Shown: positions 24,312 through 50,344 of the stretch, in pieces | Position numbering within the stretch: the stretch's first letter is position 1 | Layout: each line of letters opens with the position of its first letter | From: Ornithodoros turicata | Taxonomy: Eukaryota > Arthropoda > Arachnida > Ixodida > Argasidae | Length of the DNA: 64,000 bases | Assembly (NCBI RefSeq): GCF_037126465.1 | Contig: NC_088201.1 | Span: 196,920,403-196,984,402, forward strand | Direction: 5' to 3' | Program-made: the position numbers and the translations under genes | Notes under the pieces: model-generated | What the model was told of the DNA's origin: nothing | The model's database searches: none | Seen by the model: only the letters and a program-made list of their open reading frames with translations

Positions 24312-24398
24312 CGTCATGTACAAGTCGTCCCAGAGTGGGATTCGAACCCAGGATCCTTCTACACTGGGCGCGACACACTAACCACCAATCTAATTCGT
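24312..24398 (-). repeat. tRNA-like (SINE-type) segment inside the Polinton
   Basis: The minus strand reads a tRNA-like T-arm GGGTTCGAATCCC (a perfect pol III B box) and an acceptor-like CTCTGGGACG, with D-arm-like TGGTGGTTAGTG upstream. The 5' acceptor strand does not pair, so it is a tRNA relic or SINE head, not a functional tRNA. Confidence 0.6.
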
Positions 24399-24445
24399 AC
24401 TGCGTGACGTTTTTCGTATTGCGGGGTTCGTGTCTACACACGTCA

Positions 24446-24494
24446 CAACATGTTCAAACACGTCCAAACATGTTCAAACATGTTCAGTGACGTC
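24446..24494. promoter_or_regulatory. Decamer array module 1 + TGACGTCA
   Basis: Four abutting decamers occur at 24446, 24456, 24466 and 24476. The last two are AAACATGTTC, a perfect RRRCWWGYYY; the others have one mismatch. TGACGTCA follows at 24487-24494. Confidence 0.7.
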
Positions 24495-24495
24495 A

Positions 24496-24544
24496 CAACA
24501 TGTTCAAACACGTCCAAACATGTTCAGACACGTTCAATGACGTC
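24496..24544. promoter_or_regulatory. Decamer array module 2 + TGACGTCA
   Basis: Four abutting decamers occur at 24496, 24506, 24516 and 24526, the third a perfect consensus match. A TGACGTCA palindrome follows within 2 bp of the last decamer. Confidence 0.7.
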
Positions 24545-24609
24545 ATAAAGAGGAAGAGAGAGGAACGAGTGTGTCCAGGGGCGACTTCGACGGTTCGCCG
24601 CCCGTGTCC

Positions 24610-24669
24610 GAACATGTTCAAACATGTTCAAACACGTCTTAACATGCCCAAACACGTTCAATGACGTCA
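24610..24669. promoter_or_regulatory. Decamer array module 3 + TGACGTCA
   Basis: Five abutting decamers occur at 24610, 24620, 24630, 24640 and 24650, the first two being perfect consensus matches. TGACGTCA follows at once. The TATA box of the rightward gene begins 26 bp further on. Confidence 0.7.
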
Positions 24670-24694
24670 TAGAGAGTGAGAGGCAAAGCTTTAC

Positions 24695-24700
24695 TATAAA
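24695..24700 (+). promoter_or_regulatory. TATA box of the rightward gene
   Basis: TATAAA in a good context, 33 bp upstream of the proposed ATG at 24733. Confidence 0.65.
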
Positions 24701-24732
24701 TGTCGAAGCGAATGGTCGATCGTCATTCCATT

Positions 24733-25122
24733 ATGATCAGCTTGGTAGATCCTCGTAAGTAATACCCATGACGTCATCATCATCGTCGAAATGTTTGAAG
24801 AGTTTCGTTTCCAGTGTACAACACTTTTGCTGCGCGTGAAGTCGGTTTTTTCCCGCCTCACATATTTCGGGAGATTGGCAGGGCCCGCTTCTTCTGCACC
24901 AATTGCGGTGGATTGTGGTCCAAAGGTACACTTCCTCGTTATCTTTTTTTTAATACGTTCTATAATCGTTCACATTTTTTTCCAGAGCAAAAGCATTGGA
25001 CGGACCGATTGATTCGCCCGTTTCTCGGCTGTCGGACGGTACCGTTCGACGTACGTTGCGAAGGACTTCGACTATTGAAGGAAGATGGAGAAGATGGACC
25101 ATCAGTGTCACTCTGTGACTGA
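24733..25122 (+). CDS. Small CxxC-GGLW protein A, three exons
   Basis: Exon 1 (24733-24754) ends at a consensus donor (CTC/GTAAGT). A 60-bp intron ends with TTTCCAG at 24814. Exon 2 (24815-24925) ends AAAG/GTACAC, and a second 60-bp intron ends TTTTCCAG at 24985. Exon 3 runs to TGA at 25120-25122. The spliced protein is about 89 residues. It contains CTNCGGLW, then 17 residues ending in PFLG and a Cys, a likely metal-binding module that is repeated in the next gene and in the element at 40.7-48.1 kb. The second intron is a multiple of three without a stop, so retention would also be translatable. Function unknown. Confidence 0.6.
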
Positions 25123-25397
25123 AGAAGATTGTACGTGTGTGTGTGTTTGAGTTAAAAAAAACACGCGTTTCTCACACTCCTTTCGTTGCAGATTACGAAT
25201 GGCTACTGACGGGAGATCTACCCCTGGTCCTAACCTTCAAGCCTCCTCCAAAGACCTTCTTTTTGCGAATCGGCGATCAACTGACTACCTGTCGCTGCGG
25301 TGGACTCTGGTCGAGAAACCCCAGCCATTCGTTAGACTCGAGCCTTCGTCCGTATTTGGGCTGCCTTCCCGGCTACGAAACCAAAGCTGGAGCCTAA
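25085..25397 (+). CDS. Small CxxC-GGLW protein B, two exons
   Basis: The start ATG at 25085 lies inside the last exon of protein A in another frame. Exon 1 ends at 25130, a 61-bp intron (GTACGT to TTCGTTGCAG at 25191) is removed, and exon 2 runs to TAA at 25395-25397. This gives about 83 residues. It repeats the module of its neighbour: a C-x-C GGLW segment, then 17 residues ending PYLG, then Cys. This looks like a tandem duplication with overlapping reading frames, or two products of one alternatively used transcript. Function unknown. The exon structure is inferred from splice signals and the conserved module only. Confidence 0.55.
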
Positions 25398-25452
25398 TTC
25401 GTGTGTAACGAGAAATAAAAAAAAGGTTGTCTACTCTCATTCCGTCTCAGTC

Positions 25453-25848
25453 ATGATGACGCCCGAGCAGAGGTTTGCCACCTTTGTGCAAACGCGAATG
25501 TATCGGGACTTGCTGCGATTACGCGATTATATTCACGGCGATAGCTGCGAGGGAGACTTTCGCTCGATTCTCAAGACGATACCCTTACGTCTGTTCACCG
25601 TCAGTGGGAAGATTGCAAAGAAAATGAAGCGTTTTGTAGATTACAAGCTCGAGCTGCTGGAGAAGTATAGACGAGGAGAGACAGTCGACCCGTGTATCAT
25701 CAACGCGGGTTTCAACCGACCTATCGTCCGTCGCTACTGGCTTCTCCACACATCCCTCGACGTCACGGTGCAGACCGGCGACGACGGCGGTGAGCGTCGG
25801 GTCAGCACGTTGGAAGATCGTCTTGCAAGGGTCTTGTGTATGTCGTGA
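25453..25848 (+). CDS. Accessory protein (NAGFxRP family)
   Basis: 131-residue intact ORF starting at tandem ATGs (25453, 25456). The central block INAGFNRPIV and the preceding LLEKYRRGE segment match the 115-residue ORF at 44167-44514 (INAGFKRPII, LLKQYKHGD) at the same spacing. The Lys/Arg-rich stretch before it is also shared, although the two DNAs differ strongly in base composition. It ends 26 bp before the convergent protease gene stop, and AATAAA follows at once (about 25851). No known domain recognised; conservation across two elements argues that it is a real protein. Confidence 0.75.
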   Translation: MMTPEQRFATFVQTRMYRDLLRLRDYIHGDSCEGDFRSILKTIPLRLFTVSGKIAKKMKRFVDYKLELLEKYRRGETVDPCIINAGFNRPIVRRYWLLHTSLDVTVQTGDDGGERRVSTLEDRLARVLCMS

Positions 25849-25874
25849 AAAAATAAATAGTCTATTTTTTTTTT

Positions 25875-26315
25875 TTACGAAACGAGTTCGCTCACGAGGA
25901 GACGTTTTATTGTTTCGTCATTCTCTTCGAGGTTACAGGAAAACATGGATACACAACTTTTCAAGCTGTAGCGTTTCGACATGCGCGTGGCTACGTAGAT
26001 ACAAAAAAGCCCGCAGTAAGGCGAAAAAGGCGATTGAATACACTTGTCGTTATACTCGTCCACTACAGGTAAAGTCCTTCGAAGGTTTGCTTCGATGGGG
26101 GGAAGTCCGTAGCTGTCGAAAAACACGGCAGACCCGTCGTAGTTTTTCAGGTAGAGCACCCAGTGCTGCCCGCGCCTTCTTCGCTCTTCCGTATTGATGA
26201 TTAAATAACCGGCCTTGCGTAAAACGAAGGCTTCGTCGGAAGCGCAAATGCCTCTCAGCATGGAGGAAGCGAGGGGGTTCAGGGACACGAGTTCCAAGAT
26301 GTCGCTCTCGTACAT
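25875..26315 (-). CDS. Adenain-like cysteine protease (PRO)
   Basis: 146 residues, short and compact as in Polinton proteases of the adenovirus-protease/Ulp1 clan. The expected catalytic order is visible: His51 in GQHWVLY, Asp67 in FFDSYG, Gln94 and Cys101 in QSPFSPYCGLF. It would process virion proteins during maturation. It is the last gene of the minus-strand run, 6 bp after the major capsid gene, an association typical of Polintons. The ORF is intact. Confidence 0.9.
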   Translation of the reverse strand: MYESDILELVSLNPLASSMLRGICASDEAFVLRKAGYLIINTEERRRRGQHWVLYLKNYDGSAVFFDSYGLPPIEANLRRTLPVVDEYNDKCIQSPFSPYCGLFCIYVATRMSKRYSLKSCVSMFSCNLEENDETIKRLLVSELVS

Positions 26316-26321
26316 CTTTTC

Positions 26322-27608
26322 TTATGGGAAGGTGACCGTACGGTCCTTGTCGACGTACATGAGCTTGGGACACTCGGAAATCAAGAGGACGGTGACCGCG
26401 TGTGGAAGGGCTTTAGCGAAGCGTAATTGCAGGCGAACGTTTCCTTTTCGCCACTCGTTCAAATGCGAAGGAGAAGAACACTTGTCCACGTCCAAGTTAA
26501 AGTAGAGAAGGAACCCGTTCGTTTTAAATCGCTCGTAGCTATACTTGAAATGTTTCTCTCCCAGTTCTTGCAAGAAGTTAAAGTAGGGAATTTTGACGAG
26601 GTCGTTCTGAAAGTCGTACTCGGCTCGCACTTGCTGACCGTCCACGGAGAGCATCGAATGAGACAGGTCGTAATGACGGAATTTGTAGGGGTTCGATTGG
26701 ATGTCGCTGAGAAAGTCGGACGTGGCGAGCAGGGCGACGCATAATTTGGAAGGCACCCTTTCGGGGTAAACGTTTTCAAAGTGAGCGTCCAAGCTCCCGG
26801 CACTCAAGCTCCGCACCTTGGTTTCCAATCCGCGTAACACGTAGATGGCCGGCGTGGTCTGAAGCCGCCGCTCGTATTCCAAAAACAGGGAAGGTGCCAG
26901 CGTCACCTTTTTCAAGTGTAACGTCATTGTAATGTCCACCTCGTAATTGTACGTTTTCTTGTCTTTGGGGACCGATACGAGTTTAAATTCGTCGTTGTTT
27001 AATAGGAAAACGACGCGAATTTCGACGGCAGGTACCATCAGGCGCGGCTGTTGAAACAGGTCGGTATTGATCTGACCGACCAGGTTAAAGTATTTGCCAC
27101 CCTTCGTCGCTTCGTAACGTTGTTTCGGACCGCGAGACGAGACGTCGTAATCGTCCTTTAAATGTTCGTCGTCCTCGATATAAAGTCCAGCCGCGTGCAC
27201 TGTTTCTTGAGCCATTTGCGTGGAGTGAAGCACGACGTCCAAAATACTCCTGTAGGCGTACAACTCGTTGGAACTGACGAGTTTGTTGTTCGCATAAACG
27301 GTGACCGTCTTAAACATGCCGCTCAACAGGTGGTTTATTGGGAAAACGACATCTTTCTCGTCCATTTCTTCCCCGTCGTCGCGAACAATGCGCACGGTCA
27401 AAGACACGAAACTGCCGTAGAGATCCAAGTGTGCCCTTTGCAAATTTTGAATACAAAACTCGATCACGGAATTATTTACTCCGTTGACCGGATAAAAAAG
27501 TTGGTACGAAGTATCTTCCACGCCGTATTGAATGGAAGGGGGTTCGAATATCATCACATCACTCGTTAGACAGATCGGCGTCTGTATTTTTCCTTTCGTT
27601 GACGTCAT
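26322..27608 (-). CDS. Putative major capsid protein (double jelly-roll type)
   Basis: 428 residues, intact. The N-terminal part resembles the widespread Polinton protein family represented by C. elegans F54H12.2-like proteins: an early PPSIQYGVED motif, then FPINHLLSGMFKTVTVYANN and a SSNELYAYRS segment. Alternating hydrophobic strands throughout are consistent with a beta-rich capsid fold. It is placed between the pX/pVI-like gene and the protease, the usual order for capsid genes. The fold is inferred from family knowledge, not seen directly, and some longer relatives exist. Start chosen at the first ATG after the upstream stop. Confidence 0.78.
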   Translation of the reverse strand: MTSTKGKIQTPICLTSDVMIFEPPSIQYGVEDTSYQLFYPVNGVNNSVIEFCIQNLQRAHLDLYGSFVSLTVRIVRDDGEEMDEKDVVFPINHLLSGMFKTVTVYANNKLVSSNELYAYRSILDVVLHSTQMAQETVHAAGLYIEDDEHLKDDYDVSSRGPKQRYEATKGGKYFNLVGQINTDLFQQPRLMVPAVEIRVVFLLNNDEFKLVSVPKDKKTYNYEVDITMTLHLKKVTLAPSLFLEYERRLQTTPAIYVLRGLETKVRSLSAGSLDAHFENVYPERVPSKLCVALLATSDFLSDIQSNPYKFRHYDLSHSMLSVDGQQVRAEYDFQNDLVKIPYFNFLQELGEKHFKYSYERFKTNGFLLYFNLDVDKCSSPSHLNEWRKGNVRLQLRFAKALPHAVTVLLISECPKLMYVDKDRTVTFP

Positions 27609-27638
27609 GACGGAGCGCGCGCAGCGGATGTGTGACCT

Positions 27639-27968
27639 TCACGGCGTACCAAAGATATCTGCAGGTGCGTCGTGTGTCGGCGCCTTTTGTTGTCGTTTGC
27701 GGCGTTTCTTCCCATTGTTGTTTCCAGAGCCCTCCATGGAATCCAGCACGTCTCTCCCTGTTGCTATGGCCGTCTTTTTTACTGCGCACGATATTCCTTC
27801 GCCATCGGCCAAATTCCGCGCCAAGCGCTTCAACGTTCTCTTGGCGATCGGTTTTATTTGCTGCCAGATGGGAACGATAAACTTGGATATGTTGCTCAAC
27901 ACACCGCCCCCTCGTTGGAAAAGGGGTCCCGTGTACACGGGAATTATTTTGGGGGAATTACGGTACAT
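27639..27968 (-). CDS. Small basic pX/pVI-like virion protein
   Basis: 109 residues. The N-terminal PVYTGPLFQRGGGV followed by a helical, Lys/Arg-rich segment (IKPIAKRTLKRLARN) matches the layout of the adenovirus pX/pVI-like proteins found in Polintons and adintoviruses. The C-terminal third has a KKRRKRQQK basic tract. It overlaps the end of the minor capsid gene by 11 bp and precedes the major capsid gene by 30 bp. A role in genome packing or membrane lysis is inference from the family. Confidence 0.65.
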   Translation of the reverse strand: MYRNSPKIIPVYTGPLFQRGGGVLSNISKFIVPIWQQIKPIAKRTLKRLARNLADGEGISCAVKKTAIATGRDVLDSMEGSGNNNGKKRRKRQQKAPTHDAPADIFGTP

Positions 27969-29231
27969 ATTTGAAATGCAACGTTAGATTGGTTCTGCCT
28001 TTGGACCGCAACGGCAAACGTCTTCCCGTTTCGTCCGCGAGAACGATCGTCACTGAAGGAATTTCGAATTGAGACAGGTTAAAATACTGGATGTTATCTA
28101 ACGTGTAGGTGACGACGTGCTTGTCTTTCTCGTAATAAAAGGGCAGTATTTTTAATATAGGTTTTTTCCCGCTCCCCACGTACGTGGGTTCCACGATATC
28201 CGTGTACACGATTATGTTGTGAAACGGGGGTTCCAGGAGTACCTCGACGGAGCTCGTAGCATCCTCATCCTCCGTGAACACGGTTCGCGATTCGAAGCCC
28301 AAAAGCACGGCCAGGTACTCGGAAAGTCTTAGGGTGGAGGTGCCCTCGGAAAGCCGAATTTTACATTTCTGTTCGGTTCCGTCGAAGCTGAAGCGCGCGC
28401 GTTCGCCTACGCGCTGATTAATCGCATTTAGAAGTGCTTGCGGCGTTGCATAATAGCCGGGAGGCAGATGTACTTGCAAAGATCGAGGAATTTTCGTCTT
28501 GATCGTGAAAGAAAATTGACGCGCTATGGGGAGAGAGACGCGTAGCGTTTCTTCGTGTCCCTCGACGGCTGTGAGATGTAGCAGCCTGACAAAGGGTTCC
28601 GGTACGTGCAACCCTTTCGGTGTTTTCAGAGAGTACACGTTATCCGCGAATTCTAGCGAGGCGTCCAGCTTGTGCGTCTGGAAATACTTGTTGAGTGTGT
28701 TCCGTAGGGACGTGGTTTCCGAATTCAGAGTGACGTCGCCGAAAGCGACGGCTGCGGCGTGCTCCAATAAGATGGAGGTGGCTTCGCGTTCGCTCAATTT
28801 GGGGGGTTTCACCGCACAACCTGCTTCGCGGGACGCTAGCGAGGCGTCGAGCGCTTGCGCGAGCCGAGGGTCCAATTCCACGGCTTTCACCTCCACGGGT
28901 AGGTGAAGTCGTATCGCGATTTATTGTACACGAAAGAAACGTAGAATTCCGAAAGGGCTTTTCCCAAATCCCTCTCGAGATCCGAGGGGACACGAAAAGT
29001 TCTGCCGGCTTCCACCGTATCCTCGAAAGAAACCTCGATTTTTGCATCTTGCCTTTCGTACCCGATATTTAAAAAATCTTTACTTATGCTGAGATCCATC
29101 AGACCGACTTTATACTGATTCGAGAGCTGAAGCGGACTATCGAAAGCTACCGTGAAGGCGTTGAGTTTATTCGAGGGAAACTTATCCATGCTGGCGTTCG
29201 AGAGCAGATGGACGTAGATGTCTGACATCAT
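27958..29231 (-). pseudogene. Minor capsid (penton-like) protein, frameshifted
   Basis: The N-terminal frame (start ATG 29231 or 29228, stop 28887) contains the family signature IYVHLLSNASMDKFPSNK followed by a VGLMDLSIS segment, typical of the single jelly-roll minor capsid protein of Polintons. The rest of the protein continues in another frame from about 28900 to 27958 (312 residues, no good ATG at its start). This points to one small indel at about 28895-28905. Programmed frameshifting is possible, but I see no slippery heptamer. The start overlaps the integrase stop (ATGA arrangement). Confidence 0.8.
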
Positions 29232-30271
29232 TTCCCAATCTTGACCACGTCGCTGCTCGGAACCCAACTGTCGTGTTCTTTGTCGTAACCGAACCAGCGA
29301 ACCAAGGAGAAGCTCTGACCGTTCAGTTGCTTCTTTCTCAGCACTTTCGTTACTGGCCAAGGCTGATTGGCGTCTCGGGTTACGACGAGTACCTCCTCCG
29401 GGTAGAAAGATCCGTCCACTTCCTTACCCCGGTAATCTTCCAGGTGTATGACGGGAGGAGAGGTGTCTCTCAGGCGGGAGACGGTGAAAATCTGAGGCGA
29501 CCAACTCCCTTCCGAGCTCTTATGAAAACCTTTTCTGTGAAGTTGGACCCTCACCTTATCCCCCAGTTTGAGCTTCTTTTTCACGGAGGGTACGACGGGC
29601 TTCCCATTTATCTTATTGAACAGCTCCAATTCGTTTTCGGGCGTGACTTCGGACGGGCTGATGCCCAAAGTCCTGTGTTTGGTGGTGTTGTAGTCGCGCA
29701 CGATCTTGGGAAGCGCGGAAACGAAGTGGTATTTTCCCGTTATTCTAAAATAACGGAATATTCTGTCGCGTAAAGTGCGTATGACGCGCTCTGCCTGCGA
29801 TGCTTTGATTACTGGAGAGAAGGTAGAATACATGTGAACCTTCTTTCGTGAGAGATACTCCTTGACGGTCTTGTTGTAGAATTCCCCGCCTCTGTCGCAA
29901 AAGATGCGTGTAGGTACGTTACCTCCCCGAAAAAGTCTTATCATGGCCCTTTTCATTTCGGCGGGGCGCTTCGTCTTTAGCGGGAGGGTGCGCAGAAAGC
30001 GGGAGAGGGAATCGATTGCCACGAGAATGTAGCGGTAGCCACCGTTGAATCTCTTGTATTTTGAAAAATCGGCGAGGGCCATTTGCCACACGTCGTTGAT
30101 CTTGAGCGCGATGATGCGTCTCCTATTAGACTTTCTTCTGACCGGATGGTGGAGCGTGTAGGCATCCAGCTTTCTGAGAATGGTGAGAGCCTTCTTTTTG
30201 CTCAAGTGATGCGCTTTTCTATAGCGTTCCACACCCCCCAAACCACCCTCTGGTTTCTCATATCCCTCCAT
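29228..30271 (-). CDS. Polinton integrase with chromodomain (INT)
   Basis: 347 residues from ATG 30271. An HH-containing basic N-terminal region is followed by a DDE core: Asp68 (LADFSK), Asp126 (FCDRGGEFYN) and Glu161 (KASQAERV). An SH3-like basic domain (about 235-275) and a C-terminal chromodomain (VRWFGYDKEHDSWVPSSDV) come next. It inserts the element with a 6-bp stagger, in agreement with the observed duplication. The start overlaps the end of the upstream gene by 14 bp, and its stop overlaps the minor capsid ATG. Intact. Confidence 0.95.
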   Translation of the reverse strand: MEGYEKPEGGLGGVERYRKAHHLSKKKALTILRKLDAYTLHHPVRRKSNRRRIIALKINDVWQMALADFSKYKRFNGGYRYILVAIDSLSRFLRTLPLKTKRPAEMKRAMIRLFRGGNVPTRIFCDRGGEFYNKTVKEYLSRKKVHMYSTFSPVIKASQAERVIRTLRDRIFRYFRITGKYHFVSALPKIVRDYNTTKHRTLGISPSEVTPENELELFNKINGKPVVPSVKKKLKLGDKVRVQLHRKGFHKSSEGSWSPQIFTVSRLRDTSPPVIHLEDYRGKEVDGSFYPEEVLVVTRDANQPWPVTKVLRKKQLNGQSFSLVRWFGYDKEHDSWVPSSDVVKIGK

Positions 30272-30734
30272 AAGTCGTCCACGCAATGGAGGCCTGCTGC
30301 TGCTGCTGTTGAGGCTCGCGAGATTTGGGTAGAGAAATCAGACGCAATAGTTTCGAGACTTTGGGGAACCAGGAAGGTTTCTTTCCCATCTTACGTTGCA
30401 ACAAATAATTGACGAGTTCGTAAACTGAGGAGTGTCTGATGGGCTTGCCCGACACGGAGACACAACCCTCGTGATCCCAGGAAAGAACCTTCTTTAATTC
30501 CGAGACGACCCTTTCCGCTTCCTCTTCGTCCACCTCTGGAGAGAGGAGCGAATAGTCAAAGTCATTTGTAGCGTCGGACGCCTTGTTTTTATTGTCGTAG
30601 GGGTCAAATCCGTACTGCTTGAGTATGCGATACAGTGCTTGCAGTATGAGTTTCACTTTGACGTCGTCACTCTCCTTCGAGGAAAGAATGTTTCCGATGG
30701 AGGAGGAGGTGGTCACTTCAATTCTCTTGGCCAT
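30258..30734 (-). CDS. Hypothetical Polinton protein, 158 aa
   Basis: Intact ORF starting ATG 30734, 17 bp inside the upstream gene and ending 14 bp inside the integrase. It has a Ser-rich start, a middle acidic region (EVDEEEAER), a segment RHSSVYELVNYLLQRK resembling a conserved part of small Polinton proteins, and a C-terminal Gln run of seven. Function unknown. Position between two hallmark genes and the tight overlaps support that it is expressed. Confidence 0.65.
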   Translation of the reverse strand: MAKRIEVTTSSSIGNILSSKESDDVKVKLILQALYRILKQYGFDPYDNKNKASDATNDFDYSLLSPEVDEEEAERVVSELKKVLSWDHEGCVSVSGKPIRHSSVYELVNYLLQRKMGKKPSWFPKVSKLLRLISLPKSREPQQQQQQASIAWTTYGGI

Positions 30735-31062
30735 TGGCGAAAAGGTTCAACACGGAGGAAAGCAGGAGAGGAACCACCGACGAAAGAACGCCCTGTCCTC
30801 GCTGCTGAGACAGATAGCGCTTCAAACGTTGCGGATTATTGTGAATCTTTTTGTAGGCGAGCCGTCGTAAAAAGCGTTTGTGCTTCTTCAAACGCGCGAA
30901 CGTATCTGGAGCTAGAGCCACCTTTCCGTTCAATACATTGAGGCAAATTTCGGAGAGGTGTTTCATGTCGGACGAGGACGAACATCTCAAGACGTCGCGG
31001 CGGCGTGGAGGGGGTAGAGTGGAGAGTACTTTGAGTAAAGTGAGGTGAGGGCGGAGATTCAT
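30718..31062 (-). CDS. Conserved small Polinton protein, 114 aa
   Basis: A basic N-terminal half contains the segments CLNVLNGKVAL and KKHKRFLRRLAYKK, followed by a Q-R-G-Q-G motif and a hydrophobic tail (VVPLLLSSVLNLF). This layout recurs in a small unnamed protein family of Polinton-like elements. The hydrophobic tail could be membrane-active, and the QRGQG could be a maturation cleavage site, but both are inference. It overlaps the ATPase stop by 4 bp (ATGA). Confidence 0.7.
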   Translation of the reverse strand: MNLRPHLTLLKVLSTLPPPRRRDVLRCSSSSDMKHLSEICLNVLNGKVALAPDTFARLKKHKRFLRRLAYKKIHNNPQRLKRYLSQQRGQGVLSSVVPLLLSSVLNLFANGQEN

Positions 31063-31709
31063 TTCGGAGCGTAGATATATTGACGTTCTCCCGGAAAGAT
31101 ATTGCTACGCAACCTGTGATCCTCGTGCGTATAGTTGTGAAGATCCACGAGTAAATATGCGTGGGGCGACGACATCGCTTGTTTATATGCGTCCAGAAAA
31201 TACTCCAATCTTTTTCTGCCAAATAGCTGTTGGCCGAAATGTTCCATCTGGTGCACGCTGCGCACGGTGCGCCACAGGACGACGTAACTGGCATTGTAGG
31301 ATATTGTTCTAAAATGGCTACTGTCGAAAAAGATGTTTTGAACGAGTAAGAAGATCGACGCGTTGGCGTGGTGAGAACCCCGAATGAAAAGATCGGTCAC
31401 CTCCTTCAAGGAACCGGCGTCGGTCATGTGATCGTCGACGACGATCAGCGTAGCGCGCGACGTGTCCCACTCTCGCGGTAGCTCCTTGGTAAATTTTACG
31501 GAGTCCTCGAATTCGTCCTGCATGCTCGGCGAAGCATATTTCTGCACGTAGAATATTTGTGACGGAGGCTTGTCCACCACGTCGTTCAGGTTCCTCAACA
31601 CGTTAGCAACGAACGTAGATTTGCCGCACATGGAGGGACCGCTTAAGATACAGCGAAAAGGATGACGGAAACGAAAAAGTTCGGGGGAAGACATGTTACG
31701 TGCATACAC
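31059..31709 (-). CDS. Genome-packaging ATPase (ATP), A32/FtsK type
   Basis: 216 residues from ATG 31709, or 211 from the ATG at 31694. Walker A GPSMCGKST (24-32) and Walker B LIVVDD (88-93) are intact, followed by a sensor-like LLVQNIFF segment. This is the size and layout of Polinton/adintovirus packaging ATPases, which drive DNA into the capsid. Second gene of the minus-strand run. Confidence 0.93.
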   Translation of the reverse strand: MYARNMSSPELFRFRHPFRCILSGPSMCGKSTFVANVLRNLNDVVDKPPSQIFYVQKYASPSMQDEFEDSVKFTKELPREWDTSRATLIVVDDHMTDAGSLKEVTDLFIRGSHHANASIFLLVQNIFFDSSHFRTISYNASYVVLWRTVRSVHQMEHFGQQLFGRKRLEYFLDAYKQAMSSPHAYLLVDLHNYTHEDHRLRSNIFPGERQYIYAPK

Positions 31710-31764
31710 GTTTCACGAAGAGAAAGAAGAGACTGAGACTCGAAGAGAAATGCATCGCTTTTAT

Positions 31765-32052
31765 TTACACATCCTCGTCGTCGTCCTCTACATCGGAACT
31801 GCGTTCCCAATACAGATTGTCCAGGCTAAAGTTGGACTTCTTTTTCGCCAGTCTGTCCGCCGCTAAGATGCGGTCGAGCGTCTTCATCTTGTCCTGACAC
31901 ATCTCTTGACGTGCTTGCAACCATTCCAGACGGTGGACTTGAAAGGCTTCCTCCACGATGCCGCGTATAAATTCGCGAAGTTCTTCGTTTTTTGTCTTTT
32001 CCTTGCGACGACGAGAAACGCAGGAGAATAAACCACACATGGCGTTTTCCAC
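31765..32052 (-). CDS. Small coiled-coil-like protein, first gene after right TIR
   Basis: 95 residues starting 14 bp inside the right TIR boundary. A Cys-containing N terminus (MCGLFSCVS) is followed by a basic stretch, a probable helix rich in Glu/Gln/Arg, and an acidic tail (DVEDDDEDV). A TATA box lies 41 bp upstream. I do not recognise the family. By position it mirrors the left-end accessory gene but is not related to it. Confidence 0.6.
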   Translation of the reverse strand: MENAMCGLFSCVSRRRKEKTKNEELREFIRGIVEEAFQVHRLEWLQARQEMCQDKMKTLDRILAADRLAKKKSNFSLDNLYWERSSDVEDDDEDV

Positions 32053-32092
32053 GTATCGGTCAGAATGATGACGCGAGCGCGGTGCGCGCTGC

Positions 32093-32099
32093 CTTTATA
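32093..32099 (-). promoter_or_regulatory. TATA box in right TIR
   Basis: TATAAAG on the minus strand lies about 41 bp upstream of the ATG at 32052 and probably starts transcription of the minus-strand gene run. Confidence 0.65.
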
Positions 32100-33180
32100 C
32101 AGATAAACGCGCGCGCGCAAAGAACGGAGAATGAAAGCGAAACTGAAAAGCCACCCGTCGCCGCTAGGAGCGCGCGCGCGCGCAGCAGAGAGCCGAAACC
32201 GAAAACACCCGCGGCCGGCGCAGAGGGAGCTAGCAGCGCGCGCGCATGCGCGGACGGGTGGAGCAGAGGGCGCGCGCGCATCCATAGCTGCCGCTGCGCG
32301 TCACCTCTCTCAGTTTCTCTCGGACCGTCGCGGAAGACGGACGGGCGCTCCGCGCGCTCGCTCAGTTTCTGGCTGCCTCTCGTAGAGAGCAGACGTGTGT
32401 GTTCTCCGCGCTCGCTCAGTTTCTGCCTCGAAGTTGCCGCGGGGGAAAAGGTGAGTGATTTGACGCGCTCCTTTTCTCGTATGTTTGCCGTGTTTAGCGG
32501 TGACCGCGCTCGTGTTAAGCCTTTTCCCGCATGTTTAGACTTGTTTTGCGGTGTCCAAGCCTGTTGACGCATGTTTAGCGATGTGTGGTTCCCGCCTTGT
32601 GTTAGCTGCGTAGTGTTGAGGTTAGGCCTAAGCGATCGTCCCCGTAAGCCTCTTTCCTCGTATGTTTGCCGTGTTTAGCGGTGACCGCGCTCGTGTTAAG
32701 CCTTTTCTCGCATGTTTAGACTTGTTTTGCGGTGTCCAAGCCTGTTGACGCATGTTTAGCGATGTGTGGTTCCCACCTTGTGTTAGCTGCGTAGTGTTGT
32801 GGTTAGGCCTAAGCGATCGTCCCCGTAAGCCTTTTTCCCCGATGTGTACCGTTTTCTGTTTAGCAGTAGCGGTTAGACCTTTTCTCTCGCATGCGTAGAC
32901 TTGCTTAGCAGTGCTGTCATTTTTACCTGCCGCTAGTGTCTTGTTCTGTCTTTCTCGTCTAGAGCTATGATGGTGGCGCCATCTGGTGTGATGCCGTGCA
33001 ACTAAGTGGCCACCTGTCGTCGATCTCTGCAACTGCTGGGTGCAAACTACCAACATGGCGGGCGCTGGTCACTCGGGTGTTGCGGAGCGGCTTCTTCGCC
33101 GCGGCATCGTTGATTTTCGAATAAATTGTTTCTCACCACTCTATTTCTATCTTTTTATTTTATTTTCTACCTTTTTTTTA

Positions 33181-33352
33181 TCAGCTCAAGTAGCCGGAAA
33201 CTCACACAGTGGTCTGGACGTGTCTTAGATGATCCCCAATTAGTGTAATGACTCCCTGGTGGGTCCTGATTAATGTGGGGGGTCCCAATTAGCTCTAATT
33301 GCTAATTAATGGCGTCCAGACGAAGATGTGAGTTTCCGGATACTTGAGCTGA
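33181..33352. repeat. Polinton right terminal hairpin
   Basis: Mirror copy of the left terminal hairpin, 172 bp, with the same stem and loop. Confidence 0.87.
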
Positions 33353-33364
33353 TCCCATACTACT

Positions 33365-40622: not shown

Positions 40623-41233
40623 CCTCAAGCACCAAACGTCCGTTCGTTATGTACCATTTGGAAGGATTTCTGAGGTGCATCTCATATGTTAGTAGTAGAG
40701 AGGGGTATAGAACCCAGCCCCATGCGAATCCAGCAGACCAGCACCCCCCCTACCCTGAGCCCTGCGCGGCGCGTGTGCGGAGGGTTGTCCACGTGATTAT
40801 CGACGGGGGAGGGCTGCGCGTGCGCTCATCGTAGCATATTTTTCAGCCTGGGCAGACTTCTTTGGCCATACTTGGGCCGACTTCACATATTTTTCCGATA
40901 CAACAGGTGAGCGGTTTACATGCAGAGACATGCAAAGAAGGGTCATACACAAACAGTACAAGTCAAAATATATTTATTAGTGTCATTCAAGTTGAGATAT
41001 ATTTATTAAAGCCAATAGTGCTGGGAATTGTGATGCCAATCAGGTGAAGGAGAAAAACCCAGCCGAAAAAACCTTCACCACCTGTAACAGGGCGGAGCGT
41101 GACCGGAGGGCTGTTGTGGTGGCGGAGTGTGACCGGAGGGCTGCGTGCTTACCATTCACCCTGGGCTGACTCGTTTCACAATTTTCCTACTTGGGCGTCG
41201 CGTGGCCGGAGGGCTGCGTGTGCGTTTACCATT

Positions 41234-41345
41234 CAGCCTGGGCCGCCGACTTTCGTCATTTTTCAGTCTGGACCGCCGACTTTCGTCATTTTTCAGCCTG
41301 GGCCGTCGACTTTCGTCATTTTTCAGCTTGAATCGACTTGAATCG
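41234..41345. repeat. ~33-bp tandem repeat in the second palindrome's arms
   Basis: Three to four copies of a unit with CCGCCGACTTTCGTCATTTT and CAGCCTGGG. Mirror copies lie at about 47400-47510. Repeated ORFs here are a by-product of the repeat. Confidence 0.8.
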
Positions 41346-41789
41346 TAATTTTTCCAGCTACAACAGGTGTGCAGTTTACATGCAAAGGATAGCCATACAC
41401 AAAAGTACAAGTGAAAATATATTTATTAAAGTCATTAGGAATTATGTTATGACTCTGCGTGAATGGGAAAAACTTAGCCAAAAATCTGAAATAGAAGGAA
41501 CACAATACACGTAACAAAGAATATTACAGGTATGATACATTAACATTGAATAGGTATCACAAATCAGAATTGACAGCGCATTTAAAATATTCTTAATCAA
41601 TACGATTACAATCAAAATTGCAAATTGTATTATAAAACGTCTAATATTCCTATACGTGAGAACCATCTTTGCAATAGCGGGAACTTCTGATAGTTGTATG
41701 TAATTAACTGTGAACAGCAGAGACACTGGAAGACTATGGGACACGAACACAAGACGAAATAAAATCTATACCACTACAAAGAAGATATT

Positions 41790-42460
41790 CCACTTCACCA
41801 CATAGCACGCTCCTAGCCAACAAACAGAACAAAGCACGACACGAACACAAGAGGAAAATCAGAAGAAAAAATCAAACTCATCAGAAAATAGATATGTTAA
41901 AAACGAACTTCACCACATAGCACGATCCTAGCCAACAAACAGAACGACACGAACACAATACGAAATAAAATCTATACCACTACAAAGAAGATATTCCACT
42001 TCACCACATAGCACGCTCCTAACCAACAAAGAACGACACGAACACAAGAGGAAAATCAGAAGAAAAAATCAAACTCATCAGAAAATAGCCATGTTAAAAA
42101 TGAACTTCACCATATAGCACACTCCTAGCCAACAAACAGAACGACACGAACACAAGAGGAAATAAAATCTATACCACTACAAAGAAGATATTCCACTTCA
42201 TCACATAGCACACTCCTAGCCAACAAACAGAACAAAGAACGACACGAACACAGGAGGAAATAAAATCTATACCAATACAAATAAAATATTCCTAATCAAA
42301 ACAACATAGTAATCTATCATTCAGTAAATTAGAAGAAAAAATCAAACTTATCAGAAAATAGACATGTTAAACCATAACCAGAACTTCACCATATAGCGCG
42401 CTCCTAGCCAACAACCAGATCTAATGATATCTGACCTGCATGATTTGTTGAAGACGGATG
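41790..42460. repeat. Array of units related to the 249-bp MITE ends
   Basis: About six copies of a block reading ACTTCACCACATAGCACG and CTCCTAGCCAACAA, separated by AGAACGACACGAACACAAG-type spacers. The block equals the outer arm of the fold-back MITE at 104-352 and 5797-6045. The last unit (about 42380-42460) extends further into the MITE arm. Mirror array at about 46290-46960. Confidence 0.8.
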
Positions 42461-42936
42461 CCGACAGATGTATGGGAAGACCACGGAACACGAGCGACAA
42501 GAGGAAATAAAATCTATACCACTACAAAGAAGATATTCTTAATCAATACGATTACAATCAAATTACAAATTGTATTATAAAAGTCTGTGACGTGAGAACC
42601 ATCTTTGCAATAGCGTGAATATTTGTCATAACATTTCGAGCGCAATAGGGAATCTCAGTTTCATATTCCAACATTACTCAACTTTTAATTTCTTATTAAG
42701 TGAACAGCATAGACGTAAGGAAATAACGAGAAACAACACAATCATCAGCTACAATTAATAGAGAGCCAAACCTGCGCACCGTCCACCACATAGAGAAATA
42801 ATAGCTAATCAATCTATCAATGGCGAAATAGCAGACTTAACGCTGAAGAACAGAGGAACACGCGGCGACACGTAAACATCAACAGAGGAAAATAATCTAT
42901 CATTGAACCATCATAAAATCGATCAATATACAATAC

Positions 42937-43474
42937 AAATATCTTGTAAAGTTTATGTGAGTATATGCACAACTTTTTAATCTATATCTTTAGAAAAATG
43001 CAAGAAATAGCGTGCAGTTTTGATTTTGAAAATTTAAAGAAGAAAATGATCTTTAGTGTGGAATTTGCGTTTTACAATGTTATGAGCTAAAGACTTATAA
43101 AATTACAGTATGGCCTTTCCATTTGTAGTGCCTAGATGCTATGACACTAAAATAATGTGATAGTTTTTTCTGTATGGTTACGGGAAATCTCTAGTATATT
43201 TTGTGAATTGGATCTACGTTTATGTGTGACCTGCGCTGATCTGGTTATTATAATTAATATAACATATCTTCCATTGTGCTTATGCATAACGCTCATCTTC
43301 ATTGTATATTGGTTAAGCACTTCTGATGGCAGTTGTGTGATCCGCTTCTCCCAAAATCTGATTGCCACTTGGAAATTATTTCGTATACGTTTGTGTGCCG
43401 TGTGTTACGAAGACTACATGATTAGAAATGTAGACTTGGCCTGCACGTCGTGCTCGTAAAATATTTCGTTTGCA
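42937..43474. other. AT-rich core of the second palindrome, left part
   Basis: Strongly AT-rich. A hydrophobic ORF on the plus strand (43157-43459) and an overlapping minus-strand ORF are not recognisable. Upstream exon(s) of the gene at 43475 may lie here. Confidence 0.45.
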
Positions 43475-43768
43475 TTGTGGCATCTGATAATAGATTCGCT
43501 TTTCGCGAAGGCTTCGTATTATCTCCCAGGCAGTGAACCCCAATGCGATTGTAAAAGTTGTCGCGAATGGCCAGCCGCAATCAGTTATCTTGCCTTACTT
43601 CCCGTTTTGCCATATCTTGGCCCCCACTGCAAGCCTTGGACGGCTCCTTTTTCCTACTCATACAAATGGACAACTGTGTTGACAAAAATATTTATTTATT
43701 TGTTCCGCACTCCAATCGGTTGCTTGTCAAAGACGCCTTTTCTTCTTCTTTTACTATGTCTGGGCTAG
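43475..43768 (+). CDS. Relative of the small CxxC-W accessory protein (partial)
   Basis: No ATG opens this frame, so it is probably an internal or last exon. It contains CKSCREW followed by exactly 17 residues ending PYLG, then a Cys two residues later. The two Polinton proteins at 24733-25122 and 25085-25397 have the same W-to-PYLG/PFLG spacing of 17. Identity outside the pattern is low. I infer a diverged homolog; the spacing match could be chance. Confidence 0.45.
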   Translation: MWHLIIDSLFAKASYYLPGSEPQCDCKSCREWPAAISYLALLPVLPYLGPHCKPWTAPFSYSYKWTTVLTKIFIYLFRTPIGCLSKTPFLLLLLCLG

Positions 43769-44166
43769 TGCAACTGATTGAGAAATATACATGCACTGTT
43801 GAATTTAATTCGTGAAATATGATAAGTTTTCACATGAGATTAGTGATCCTTTTTGTAATCATAGACCGATGTATCATATCTCTAAATTTCAATGACCGAT
43901 CCTTCTCCGGCAATTCTATCCTTCGGGTGTTGAATTTGTACAGAGTGTAGTCGAGTAAAACCTATTTGGTGGTCAGGTCTCATTCCATATGAGAATTCTT
44001 ACACAAATTGTGGAATATTTCGTTTCCTTAGCGATCATTGTTCTCAGTCTAGCCATGCTAAATGTAAAGTGTTTTTCATTGTGATGCGAAGCATTCATTT
44101 TAATGATGACAAAGATTACAATTATTGTTTCACTTATACACTTGTTTATTTCGATAAATTACAATT

Positions 44167-44514
44167 CTATTTCAAACTCTGAAGTTTTCGTTTGTTGTCT
44201 TCATTGATGAATTCCGAAGACATTAAATAGTTTATTCTGATTATTGGGCGCTTGAATCCAGCGTTGATTAATGCAGGCGCTATGTTGTCGCCGTGTTTGT
44301 ATTGCTTCAACAACTTGCACTTTGTCGCGATGAATTTGCAGAGTCTCTTATTGATGCTTCCTTTCTTTGCATGAAGGTTCTTGAATGGCGTACAAGAGAG
44401 TATTAGATGAAAATCGTCCGGTGGTCCACCGCAATTGATATGTTTGTTGAGTTTCAACAGGTGATAATACATCAGACCTTGCACGACAATATTGAACTTC
44501 TGTTGATTCGACAT
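44167..44514 (-). CDS. NAGFxRP-family accessory protein
   Basis: Intact 115-residue ORF. The block INAGFKRPII and the preceding LLKQYKHGD, with a Lys-rich segment before them, match the 131-residue Polinton protein at 25453-25848. This copy is shorter at the C terminus. It lies 70 bp downstream of the next gene, on the same strand. AT-rich codons contrast with the GC-richer Polinton version. Function unknown. Confidence 0.72.
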   Translation of the reverse strand: MSNQQKFNIVVQGLMYYHLLKLNKHINCGGPPDDFHLILSCTPFKNLHAKKGSINKRLCKFIATKCKLLKQYKHGDNIAPALINAGFKRPIIRINYLMSSEFINEDNKRKLQSLK

Positions 44515-44584
44515 CGTTGCAGAGACTGGTAGAAGAAAATAATTGCGTTGCCGTGGTAGTGGAATATATCACCATGATAGGATT

Positions 44585-45031
44585 TTATATACTTTCCATC
44601 TCAGATATGTGTAATTTCAACAAATCCGTAATGAATCGTGCGATATAGACCGCTTGTATATGATAATTTGATCCGACTGCTTTCTTGATGTACGCAATGC
44701 CCATTGCAATGATTACAATTACATCTGGTCTAGTGTATTTCAATTCTTCGTTGGCAAACCTAAAAAACTCCGCCATCAATCCCAATGGCCCTTCAGACGT
44801 TGATGTGCAGATATTTTTATAAGTATTGTAGATTCGGCATATAAATTCTTGCACCTTCAGTTCTGTAGTTTGTACCATATCTCCGAATACGACCATGTCT
44901 AGGACGTATTGAAATGCAGCGATAATGAAATCGTTTCGCGGCTCCTCCTTTTCGAAGCAGTTTTTTATCACATCTTCCCATGACTTATGGTATCGAGTAC
45001 AAAATCTGTCCATCTTTTCAAAGTAGAGCAA
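44585..45031 (-). CDS. FGxM-family accessory protein, intact
   Basis: 148-residue intact ORF; the likely start is ATG 45031 or the in-frame ATG at 45013. Blocks SWEDV, PRNDF, YVLDMVVFG, YKNIC, GPLGL and QAVYIARFITDLLK match the broken Polinton gene at 19144-19602 along the full length with no gaps around the stop position. It appears mostly helical, with no signal peptide seen. With the adjacent NAGFxRP gene it forms a two-gene minus-strand unit. Function unknown; the intact frame in a non-autonomous element suggests selection or recent transfer. Confidence 0.75.
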   Translation of the reverse strand: MLYFEKMDRFCTRYHKSWEDVIKNCFEKEEPRNDFIIAAFQYVLDMVVFGDMVQTTELKVQEFICRIYNTYKNICTSTSEGPLGLMAEFFRFANEELKYTRPDVIVIIAMGIAYIKKAVGSNYHIQAVYIARFITDLLKLHISEMESI

Positions 45032-45813
45032 TTGTCTCTTCTGTTTTCAAGTGCACGTCTACACTTAATTAAAATCATATCTATGTTTATTTTATTGATT
45101 AAAATTTTATTATCTGATTTAGAATGCTATAATCTCCACCTGTCGTGAGAATTATTGTTTTGATTTTGTTTCAAGTATTCACTCGACTGATATTCTATGA
45201 GTTGTGAACTTACCGCTCGAGATAATTATTGTCTTGTATTTGTTTCAATTGTTCACTCGATTGACATAAGTAAGTACCTCTAAGATGGGAATGCCTCATA
45301 GCTCTGAGTTGCATTTCACATTTGATATTTCTGTGTGGTTCATTAGAAATTTCTGTTGCAAAATATTACAAAAATTGACGTAATTAAATTTGTTTCTCGT
45401 TTTTGATTGAGTATCGTTGCTACCAATTAATAATTTGGACTTTCTCTACATTTTCAATAACAATATCGCATCTCTACAAACTTAGCCGACTTGACAACCA
45501 CTTTGACGAAAGATTTCCATTTCAGGGAAAGGATGCGAAAAGAGAGTGACCCCAGCGAGTGATATCGACATCTATTTGCGCTGCACAATAAACTATATCG
45601 CCTTTGAACTCTCTTATCTGACCTCTAGAGCGCCCCGTTTGCTGGACAAAGTAATATAGCCCCTAACCCTTTGAGTGATAAAGCATGCGCTGTGCTATGG
45701 TCACATAGATATAGACATAAAGCCTCCTGGCTTTGAGGAAAAGAGTGAAAACCGTGCATATTTCCTATGTCTTGGATACCTCCATCAAGGTTCGTAGTGT
45801 TTGTTAGAATGAA
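45032..45813. other. AT-rich core of the second palindrome, right part
   Basis: Upstream flank of the minus-strand gene pair. Probably holds their promoter, but no clear TATA could be singled out in the AT-rich sequence. Nothing else recognised. Confidence 0.45.
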
Positions 45814-48065
45814 AATTGTATATTGATCGATTTTATGATGGTTCAATGATAGATTATTTTCCTCTGTTGATGTTTACGTGTCGCCGCGTGTTCCTCTGTT
45901 CTTCAGCGTTAAGTCTGCTATTTCGCCATTGATAGATTGATTAGCTATTATTTCTCTATGTGTTGGACGGTGCGCAGGTTTGGCTCTCTATTAATTGTAG
46001 CTGATGATTGTGTTGTTTCTCGTTATTTCCTTACGTCTATGCTGTTCACTTAATAAGAAATTAAAAGTTGAGTAATGTTGGAATATGAAACTGAGATTCC
46101 CTATTGCGCTCGAAATGTTATGACAAATATTCACGCTATTGCAAAGATGGTTCTCACGTCACAGACTTTTATAATACAATTTGTAATTTGATTGTAATCG
46201 TATTGATTAAGAATATCTTCTTTGTAGTGGTATAGATTTTATTTCCTCTTGTCGCTCGTGTTCCGTGGTCTTCCCATACATCTATCGGCATCCGTCTTCA
46301 ACAAATCATGCAGGTCAGATATCATTAGATCTGGTTGTTGGCTAGGAGCGCGCTATATGGTGAAGTTCATTTTAACATGTCTATTTTCTGATAAGTTTGA
46401 TTTTTTCTTCTAATTTACTGAATGATAGATTACTATGTTGTTTTGATTAGGAATATGTTATTTGTATTGGTATAGATTTTATTTCCTCCTGTGTTCGTGT
46501 CGTTCTTTGTTCTGTTTGTTGGCTAGGAGTGTGCTATGTGGTGAAGTGGAATATCTTCTTTGTAGTGGTATAGATTTTATTTCCTCTTGTGTTCGTGTCG
46601 TTCTGTTTGTTGGCTAGGAGTGTGCTATATGGTGAAGTTCATTTTTAACATGGCTATTTTCTGATGAGTTTGATTTTTTCTTCTGATTTTCCTCTTGTGT
46701 TCGTGTCGTTCTTTGTTGGCTAGGAGCGTTGCTATGTGGTGAAGTGGAATATCTTCTTTGTAGTGGTATAGATTTTATTTCGTATTGTGTTCGTGTCGTT
46801 CTGTTTGTTGGCTAGGATCGTGCTATGTGGTGAAGTTCGTTTTTAACATATCTATTTTCTGATGAGTTTGATTTTTTCTTCTGATTTTCCTCTTGTGTTC
46901 GTGTCGTGCTTTGTTCTGTTTGTTGGCTAGGAGCGTGCTATGTGGTGAAGTGGAATATCTTCTTTGTAGTGGTATAGATTTTATTTCGTCTTGTGTTCGT
47001 GTCCCATAGTCTTCCAGTGTCTCTGCTGTTCACAGTTAATTACATACAACTATCAGAAGTTCCCGCTATTGCAAAGATGGTTCTCACGTATAGGAATATT
47101 AGACGTTTTATAATACAATTTGCAATTTTGATTGTAATCGTATTGATTAAGAATATTTTAAATGCGCTGTCAATTCTGATTTGTGATACCTATTCAATGC
47201 TAATGTATCATACCTGTAATATTCTTTGTTACGTGTATTGTGTTCCTTCTATTTCAGATTTTTGGCTAAGTTTTTCCCATTCACGCAGAGTCATAACATA
47301 ATTCCTAATGACTTTAATAAATATATTTTCACTTGTACTTTTGTGTATGGCTATCCTTTGCATGTAAACTGCACACCTGTTGTAGCTGGAAAAATTACGA
47401 TTCAAGTCGATTCAAGCTGAAAAATGACGAAAGTCGACGGCCCAGGCTGAAAAATGACGAACGTCGGCGGTCCAGACTGAAAAATGACGAAAGTCGGCGG
47501 CCCAGGCTGAATGGTAAACGCACACGCAGCCCTCCGGCCACGCGACGCCCAAGTAGGAAAATTGTGAAACAAGTCAGCCCAGGGTGAATGGTAAGCACGC
47601 AGCCCTCCGGTCACACTCCGCCCACCACAACAGCCCTCCGGTCACGCTCCGCCCTGTTACAGGTGGTGAAGGTTTTTTCGGCTGGGTTTTTCTCCTTCAC
47701 CTGATTGGCATCACAATTCCCAGCACTATTGGCTTTAATAAATATATCTCAACTTGAATGACACTAATAAATATATTTTGACTTGTACTTTTTGTGTATG
47801 ACCCTTCTTTGCATGTCTCTGCATGTAAACCGCTCACCTGTTGTATCGGAAAAATATGTGAAGTCGGCCCAAGTATGGCCAAAGAAGTCTGCCCAGGCTG
47901 AAAAATATGCTACGATGAGCGCACGCGCAGCCCTCCCCCGTCGATAATCACGTGGACAACCCTCCGCACACGCGCCGCGCAGGGAAAAATACGCGCAGGG
48001 CTCAGGGTAGGGGGGGGGGGTGCTGGATTCGCATGGGGCTGGGTTCTATACCCCTCTCTACTACT
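45814..48065. repeat. Right inverted repeat of the second palindrome
   Basis: Mirror of 40691-42936, with a small indel near 47980-48000 where this copy has extra sequence. Confidence 0.88.
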
Positions 48066-50344
48066 GATGTTACCCTGACTCTGTTATTCCGAAGAATCCG
48101 CGGTCGTGTTTTTGGCGCTCTGTTTTCCACGTTACTTCCTCGGGAAGTTCTACGTTGATATATGCCGTTATCGCCAATATCCTTGAATAAATTAGAGAAA
48201 ATCGTTCCTGTACCTGCCTGCGTGAAGGATTTCAGCAGACTTTCCGCGGTAGAGTACAGGATAGGTGAACGATTCCGACTTATTCTCACCCAGGTTGTTG
48301 ATTTCGAATTTCCTCTCGTGTCTCTTACTTTTAGTAATGAATATTAAAGTGCTTGGCTGTCCCTATGAGACACCCGCCTTGCAAAGCAAAGCACCACGTG
48401 AGAAGGTGTTTTGGGGGTGACTGGGGTGTGTAATCCTACTTTACACCCATTTCACACTCATGCAATACCCATTTGCATTTTGAAGGGTGTAGAGAAGGGC
48501 GTTGCCGAAAACAAAGAGTGTTATAGACGTATTACACCCTATCCGCACCCTATAAGGTGTAAAAACATTTGCTGTGTAAGCTACAAGCACAGTCGCGTCT
48601 ACATTGGCATTACCAATGGATGTACTAGAGCGCAAAATTGCTTGTTGCGTGCAAAATTGCACGCTAACTGCGGATAATTGCTGAGTGGAGGTGGTTGAGG
48701 GAGCTGCGAAATCGTAACGTTTTTGTCGCAAGGTTTTCCTTTCTTTCTTTCATTTATGATATTTGCTTCTGTGTCATGTTTCAATTTGTCAATACTTCTA
48801 ATGTTACCTCGTAGTGCCATTTGTTCTTGTCCTATATGTTAATAGGATGCATTACAATTCACTAAGCTTTCCCATCGTTCATACCCTACATAGCCATGTG
48901 TTCAACACCGTTCCCGTTACAATTGTTTTGATGCATGCTGCCGTCATCTAATATCGGACCAGGGACGGCGACGACAGGCAACGCGCCACTATAGCGAACG
49001 AATGCGGAGCACTGTCAGAGGGATGTTTTCTACGCGCTTTTAGATTCCTAATACGTGTGCTCTATGAGGAATACACAGGTGAAGCCTGCTTTGCGTTCTG
49101 TCCCGAATTCATGTGCGTGTAGTTCCTTAAAGGTCAGCTATGCCGATATCCCAAATAGTCTAAACGGTTGTGATATTCTGAAAGCCCACATCCAGCTCTC
49201 CCCAAAATACACCTTCATTCTCTCAGTTCGGTACAGTACCATGTCAAAAAAATAGGTAAGTCATTCCGAAACACACATGGGCGCAGCCATTTTTATGACG
49301 TAGATGCACCCGAACGGGCATTGTGACGTGTACGCGCCTTCGTACTTGTCAGTGGATTTCAGCTACGGCTTCTCGCGGCTTCACGTATCTGTGCTTGAAG
49401 ATGGCGGACAGCCGGGTTCCACCGTTCCGCGATAAGTAAACAGTGCAGCAGCTGCGAACTCATTCGCGAACCAACCTCTGTGCGATGTTGTGACTGGAAT
49501 TCGTCGTTTGTGTTTTGTGAGCACGTACAATTTCTATCAAGTTGCGTCTGCGTTAGCCCCTTTACAGCACTTGCCCATTGTAGAGGCTGACGTTTCGACA
49601 GCCGTGTCAGCAAGAAAAAGCCGACAGCGTTTTATTACTGCAGGAAAATTGTGCTATGTATTTGAGAGACCGCATACTGCTATGGGACAAGTTTTACGTA
49701 CGATTTATCAATGTGCAACAGCGTCGACGATGGTATGTAATGACGAAAGACGTAAAACGAAATACAAAAATAATTTTAAACTTTTTGTGGGATTCTGTGC
49801 ATTTTCCAGAAGCTTTCTTTGAATCACACACTCCCATGTCACGCTGCGTTGTGTGGTACGCTACTACTGCATTTTATGTCTAACATCTGGATATTGTTTG
49901 TAATGAACACCGTCGCACAAAAACATGCACACGAAAGCTCCAGTAGCCATGTGGTTGCACACTATGCAGACGCAAAAGAAGTACCAGAGCACATATTGCC
50001 ACTTAGAAATGTGGTGTCTGAAGAGTTAGGGCATAGCATAGATCCTAGAAATCAGGTGCACCTTATCCTTCTGTAGAGTGCTCTTTCAATTCACAACTCA
50101 GCCCATGGGGTGTAAAAGTGTTAAAGGCAATTATGTGACTTGTCGTCCTGGGTGACATCACTGGCCAGCCTCGGGATTAATTCCGTGCTCAGGAATTATT
50201 GTACAAATCACTTTGTATGTAGGACGTGATAAGCAATATGTAAGTTGCAACCTTGTCTGCAGCATTCTCGATTGCCTCTTACCTTTACAGTTCGAGACAC
50301 GTTACCAAACCATTTGCAAAGGGCACTCTTACAGGGGCCGTGTA
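48066..50344. other. Intergenic DNA, no supported gene
   Basis: Several TTACACCC-type short repeats at 48410-48575 suggest a small dispersed element. Overlapping plus-strand ORFs at 49490-50076 are unrecognised and shift frame repeatedly. Confidence 0.45.

Follow-up and report, generated by a model that had tools for sequence, protein, structure and literature searches.

Why should a mobile element in which no enzyme for its own movement can be detected keep two protein genes in working order? The question is raised by the element at positions 40691-48065 of a 64,000-nucleotide stretch of the Ornithodoros turicata genome (contig NC_088201.1, positions 196,920,403 to 196,984,402 of the forward strand), to which we refer as the window. 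An earlier note, made from the letters of the window, had presented this element as a gene-poor palindrome that shares accessory genes with an autonomous Polinton in the window. Part of that observation is borne out: two of its genes, here called A and B, are homologs of Polinton genes and have open frames; a third proposed match, of a frame with a CxxC-W motif, is not. The interpretation we favour, and to which we attach a probability of roughly two in three, is that the element represents a truncated copy of a multi-copy, non-autonomous Polinton satellite of the snapback type, which is mobilised in trans and depends on its own A and B. The family as such, a multi-copy, snapback-type non-autonomous Polinton, is real, and its two protein genes look selected.

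The window copy spans 7.4 kb and is bounded by terminal inverted repeats (TIRs) at 40691..42934 (plus strand; beginning with AGTAGTAGAGAGG) and 45815..48065 (minus strand), which are 98.4% alike over 2259 columns (blastn). The left TIR is the remnant of a left arm, and the right TIR is the outer end of a complete arm and holds repeated segments in its inner part. The flanking target-site duplications (TSDs), TATGTT at 40685..40690 and GATGTT at 48066..48071, agree at five of six bases. The minus strand of the interior, between the two TIRs, encodes two open genes: A (44167..44514, 115 aa) and B (44585..45013, 142 aa), the latter starting at the ATG at 45013 and not, as first proposed, at 45031. 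At about 42930 the gene block of the left arm has been lost and the left TIR is joined to the centre-proximal end of the right arm, which leaves this copy shortened and less palindromic than its relatives. The earlier note had not noticed that in many of these relatives both arms contain the genes. A piece of the TIR (46292-46408) is ~77-80% like a 250-bp palindromic repeat that occurs at 104-353 and 5797-6046, near the left end of the window.

The Polinton used for comparison occupies 17820..33364, has 1.3-kb TIRs with ends AGTAGTATGGG and is flanked by a perfect hexamer TSD, GGTGGG (17814-17819 and 33365-33370). Gene A matches its gene at 25453..25848 (plus strand) with 36% identity over 102 aa (BLASTP, E 3e-24). 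Gene B matches its gene at 19144..19602 (plus strand) in two pieces (57% over 42 aa, E 5e-19; 48% over 83 aa, E 4e-30), because this Polinton copy carries one in-frame stop; the gene is open in both of the other Polinton copies read (L058 and L059), and against the uninterrupted copy in L058 the match extends over 129 aa with 50% identity (E 6e-50). The diverged homology that had been proposed for both genes is thus confirmed. In the satellite and the Polinton alike, B precedes A from the TIR inward and both are read in one direction; in the Polinton, other genes lie between them. Comparison of the codons of A and of the two B pieces gave proportions of synonymous differences (pS) of 0.73-0.83, saturated or nearly so, and of nonsynonymous differences (pN) of 0.28-0.43, and second codon positions were the most alike (identity 0.62-0.83), third positions the least (0.33-0.38). 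Saturated silent divergence with lower replacement divergence, concentrated at third positions, implies that both lineages have long retained proteins A and B.

Beyond frames overlapping A and B, a tblastx comparison of the whole element with the window Polinton returned nothing at E<1e-3, so that the element holds no further detectable gene of this Polinton, in agreement with what had been noted at the outset. Neither PolB nor the RVE integrase was found in this comparison, nor were the capsid, protease and packaging ATPase of this one Polinton, whose putative capsid gene (26322-27608) has no Pfam match. In the Polinton itself, PolB and integrase scored above the Pfam cut-off and protease and ATPase just below it. 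At the DNA level, blastn (word 11, E 1e-5, alignments of at least 60 columns) found no match between element and Polinton.

Relatives of A and B were also sought outside the host. Pfam gave no match above the cut-off, the PDB sequences no match of value, and the protein database two candidates for each protein, none at E ≤ 0.001. No relatives were found in viral contigs; in prokaryote genome contigs three motif matches were recovered, with tblastn values no better than E 0.035, which we take as chance. The two predicted models, one for each protein, are helical and weak (predicted local distance difference test scores, pLDDT, of 54.7 and 51.9), and the best Foldseek match for the B model (E 1.0) was given no weight, the model being too weak for a fold test.

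The suggestion to search the host genome (G000; 1.07 Gb, 379 contigs) for further elements with these genes proved fruitful, as it recovered many copies of one kind. Gene B gave 4576 first-look candidates, of which the best 150 were scored: all are at least 96% identical and 147 lack an internal stop. Sixty-six of these 150 places form 33 pairs that face each other within 10 kb, a lower bound since a partner beyond the best 150 is not counted, whereas back-to-back pairs were absent and a single same-strand pair was seen. Twenty regions of 10 kb were fetched (17 picked as facing pairs, 3 as single listings), so the frequency of palindromes is better judged from the 150 places than from these loci. 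Within them, B is complete in both arms at 17 of 20 loci, and B and A together at 15 (near-palindromes), the genes reading inward. An inverted self-match of more than 700 bp is present in 19 loci; in the exception, L027, the region ends after one arm. The unpaired centre measures 99-106 bp in L012, L017, L019 and L029; the remaining loci, whose arms have lost parts, have centres of 195 to 3479 bp; in L017 the palindrome turns inside gene A, so that its centre is a different place. Complete elements with both ends located are about 8.2 to 11.3 kb long.

The ends connect the family to Polintons. Both ends were located in nine elements, the window copy included, and begin with AGTAGTA, as do those of the window Polinton. 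Since the ends were located by means of this heptamer, its presence is no independent support, but the agreement of the 6-bp flanks is. Seven of the nine elements have identical hexamers on the two sides; the window copy agrees at five of six bases and L021 at four, and 6-bp duplications together with AGTAGTA in satellite and Polinton amount to a Polinton-like integration signature. Beyond the heptamer the satellite TIR has no detectable similarity to the Polinton TIR, and the following ten or so bases vary between elements. AGTAGTA was absent from the DNA fetched for the right side of L029, the left side of L031 and the left side of the L028 region. Within single elements the two ends are very alike: the first 30 bases are the same at both ends in seven of nine. 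The same holds for the arms, which differ by 0.06-2.7%; when arms are compared over A, B and the stretch that separates B from the TIR, those of one element are each other's closest relatives among the sampled elements in 12 of 16 cases, and the noncoding stretch nc1 diverges by 1.3% from arm to arm and by 4.9% from element to element. This pattern, found in most sampled elements, may have arisen by pairing and repair of the arms in a hairpin intermediate.

The evidence for selection comes from the 20 fetched loci. There, B has 38 matches, of which 37 are full length, every one of these intact, and A has 37, of which 35 are full length and 26 of those intact. Between elements, A has a pN/pS of 0.218 (19 elements; 95% bootstrap 0.144-0.309) and B one of 0.204 (20 elements; 0.130-0.326), compared with 0.385-1.095 for 18 noncoding frames of the sampled elements (six stretches in three frames, one strand). 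The protein-level selection that had been surmised from the open frames is therefore supported, and a ratio of nonsynonymous to synonymous substitution rates (dN/dS) near 1, named in the earlier note as telling against its proposal, was looked for and not found. Differences between elements accumulate at third codon positions (first/second/third: 0.014/0.017/0.038 in A and 0.009/0.007/0.023 in B), whereas from arm to arm B differs about equally at all three positions (0.0049/0.0045/0.0049) and A shows a weaker bias (0.0092/0.0092/0.0135). Changes common to at least three elements are all silent (4/4 in A, 2/2 in B), and those common to exactly two elements are in B four silent and two replacement. 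Low pN/pS between elements, combined with the lack of codon-position bias between the arms in B, leads us to conclude that, as far as the sequences of the sampled copies tell, selection on A and B appears to act during propagation.

Two further frames were considered and rejected as genes. The CxxC-W candidate (43460..43768, plus strand), whose part at 43475-43768 had been thought to match Polinton proteins, has no tblastx match to the Polinton at E ≤ 1, is kept open by 9 of the 29 copies in the genome and behaves as noncoding DNA, with a pN/pS of 0.741 that lies within the noncoding range. In L019 a 102-aa open frame (4812-5120) begins in one arm and crosses the centre; its pN/pS is 0.954 as a whole (8 copies) and 1.10 for the arm part (17 copies).

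Several observations weigh against the interpretation as a selected snapback satellite. Of the 19 loci with a self-match, only four have the short centre of 99-106 bp; four of 16 elements (L012, L016, L029, L030) have an arm that is closer to another element than to its partner; and the two ends differ at 3 of 30 bases in L023 and at more in L020. Gene A is damaged in 9 of its 35 full-length copies, and its changes common to exactly two elements comprise two silent and seven replacement ones. From arm to arm pN/pS rises to 0.56 for B and 0.39 for A, the latter touching the low end of the noncoding range. The low ratio of B is biased, because high B scores governed the choice of the 20 loci; A was not directly selected on in the choice of loci. 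Finally, Pfam, PDB, the protein database and the weak structural models provide no functional assignment for A or B.

What the two proteins act on separates the favoured interpretation from its nearest variant, in which they are aimed at the host or at the Polinton, as suppressors of silencing or apoptosis or in superinfection control, and are kept through starts from few copies per infected cell or germ line. Small helical proteins (in the weak models) without a known domain, whose genes and the main Polinton cluster are on opposite strands and which have homologs in Polintons, would suit such a function. No suppressor was matched by sequence or by fold, the fold search covering the B model only, which is too weak for it, and we regard the variant as possible, with the odds against it.

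A further explanation, well short of even odds, is that the copies have arisen repeatedly by deletion from an autonomous, as yet unseen Polinton that shares their ends, in which case selection would operate in that master and the satellites would be short-lived by-products. Such derivation is the usual origin of non-autonomous elements, and the order and direction of B and A are those of the Polinton. The fetched loci, however, have one unusual anatomy with the same B-A block and offer no clearly independent origins, and the changes common to at least three elements are all silent, albeit with small counts that could also sit in a master. For the window Polinton itself, internal deletion, which the earlier note had named as an outcome that would undo its proposal, is rejected: there is no DNA similarity, the proteins are 36-50% identical and 150 copies of the satellite gene were scored; that part of the objection applies henceforth to another, unseen Polinton.

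It is quite improbable that the copies are dead repeats with an apparent constraint produced by recent spread, gene conversion or the choice of copies. The loci were indeed picked by best B score and the copies are just ~1-5% apart, but A, which was not used for choosing, has the same ratio as B, the 18 noncoding frames range from 0.385 to 1.095, and gene conversion would not be expected to act preferentially at third positions. That the palindromes are fold-back assembly errors we consider hardly credible, since, against a single case on a small contig (L044), where a Polinton has a 100% identical inverted copy, stand satellite arms that differ by 0.06-2.7%, the location of 18 of 20 loci on contigs C1-C6 of more than 70 Mb, and perfect TSDs at seven of nine elements.

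A satellite of this kind would require a helper, and the window Polinton is of the candidate type. Its integrase gave 6187 first-look candidates in the host genome; the 117 matches that were scored, its own included, are all at least 97% identical and none has an internal stop, so Polinton enzymes are plausibly available in trans. The three Polinton-family copies of B that were compared are too alike for a selection test. Among the scored integrase matches there are at least three pairs that face each other, and at L044 (G000:C59:43000-52999) a stretch of Polinton is followed by a 100% identical 2.6-kb inverted copy that includes the integrase; these may be either snapback forms of the other end of the Polinton or assembly fold-backs. 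The window Polinton is itself inserted in another palindromic element (7615-17820 and 33364-33662, arms of ~5 kb), whose best tblastx match to the satellite has an E of 0.72.

Compared with known systems, the satellite is closest to the Polintons (Mavericks, self-synthesizing transposons or polintoviruses), with which it shares TIRs starting with AGTAGTA, a 6-bp TSD and two homologous genes, and from which it differs in the lack of matches to PolB, integrase, protease, ATPase or other genes, in its size of about 7-11 kb and in being palindromic in many copies. Polintons are recognised by TIRs starting with AG and a 6-bp target duplication, and the satellite has both (a perfect duplication in 7/9); its Polinton-type ends, many copies and lack of detected enzymes place it among the non-autonomous ones. 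Palindromic snapback defective-interfering genomes are known from linear DNA viruses such as adenovirus and resemble it in the head-to-head arrangement of one genome end (found for both genes in 15/20 loci, not in the window copy), the loss of hallmark genes and the implied helper; unlike them, the satellite is genome-resident, present in many copies and endowed with two genes under apparent purifying selection. With virophages and satellite viruses it would share helper dependence, its proposed way of life; virophages encode their own capsid, and no capsid gene is seen in the satellite. Foldback elements and miniature inverted-repeat transposable elements (MITEs) likewise have long inverted repeats and no transposase, but are characterised by the absence of protein-coding capacity under selection, whereas the satellite arms hold conserved protein genes, as judged from the pN/pS of A and B against the noncoding frames. 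Long TIRs are also a feature of the Tlr elements of Tetrahymena. These Polinton-related elements are reported to have been suggested once as non-autonomous Polinton derivatives but, unlike the satellite, to carry a major capsid protein (MCP) and to be an outgroup rather than a derivative (PMC4028283). Among the top-ranked papers listed by searches of the open-licence literature, no title or beginning of an abstract dealt with a non-autonomous palindromic Polinton, and a search there for snapback defective genomes gave no paper.

For the favoured satellite the following cycle can be proposed. Its fullest copies are snapback genomes that consist of the outer TIR, B, A and ~1.6 kb more, arranged head-to-head around a centre of ~0.1 kb, and other copies have lost parts of one or both arms. 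The arrangement may have originated when an ancient Polinton folded back and had one of its ends duplicated, for which the palindromic defective genomes of linear DNA viruses serve as a model. Polymerase, integrase and possibly capsid would be supplied in trans by Polintons, to which the satellite would offer its AGTAGTA ends, becoming inserted with the 6-bp duplication seen at its flanks. Single-stranded satellite DNA could fold into a hairpin in which pairing and repair equalise arms and ends, and A and B would be kept by the selection that is visible between insertions in the sampled copies. Our best guess is that they act on the DNA of the element itself, for instance by recognising an origin or the termini in a way that fits its own TIRs, because an enzyme-less element should not keep trans-acting proteins and because the TIRs appear to have diverged together with the proteins. 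More tentatively, the element might be a genome-resident satellite virus of Polintons, with a snapback genome and its own origin-recognition or terminal proteins (A and B), packaged and inserted by Polinton proteins and transmitted as single genomes, so that selection would act on individuals; we lean against this stronger form.

Elsewhere in the window, a reverse transcriptase frame occurs at 50546-51604 (Pfam RVT_1, 6e-17), and positions 58243-64000 consist of a tandem satellite of ~291 bp, inverted near 60920, with 19 matches to the Rfam type I hammerhead ribozyme.

In non-autonomous DNA transposons, selection on proteins should fade, since a trans-acting protein benefits every copy equally. 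A pN/pS of ~0.2 for two genes in the sampled copies of an enzyme-less relative of Polintons therefore points to a benefit for the encoding element itself. Virion-like bottlenecks would be expected to produce such selection, plain transposition less so, and continued movement of Polintons as viruses thereby becomes testable. In the satellite, snapback defective genomes would have a natural counterpart, and A and B are two Polinton genes without assigned function that are now worth study. If the stronger, satellite-virus form is true, selection on proteins that an enzyme-less element encodes would be a trace left by Polintons passing through this host in an infection-like manner.

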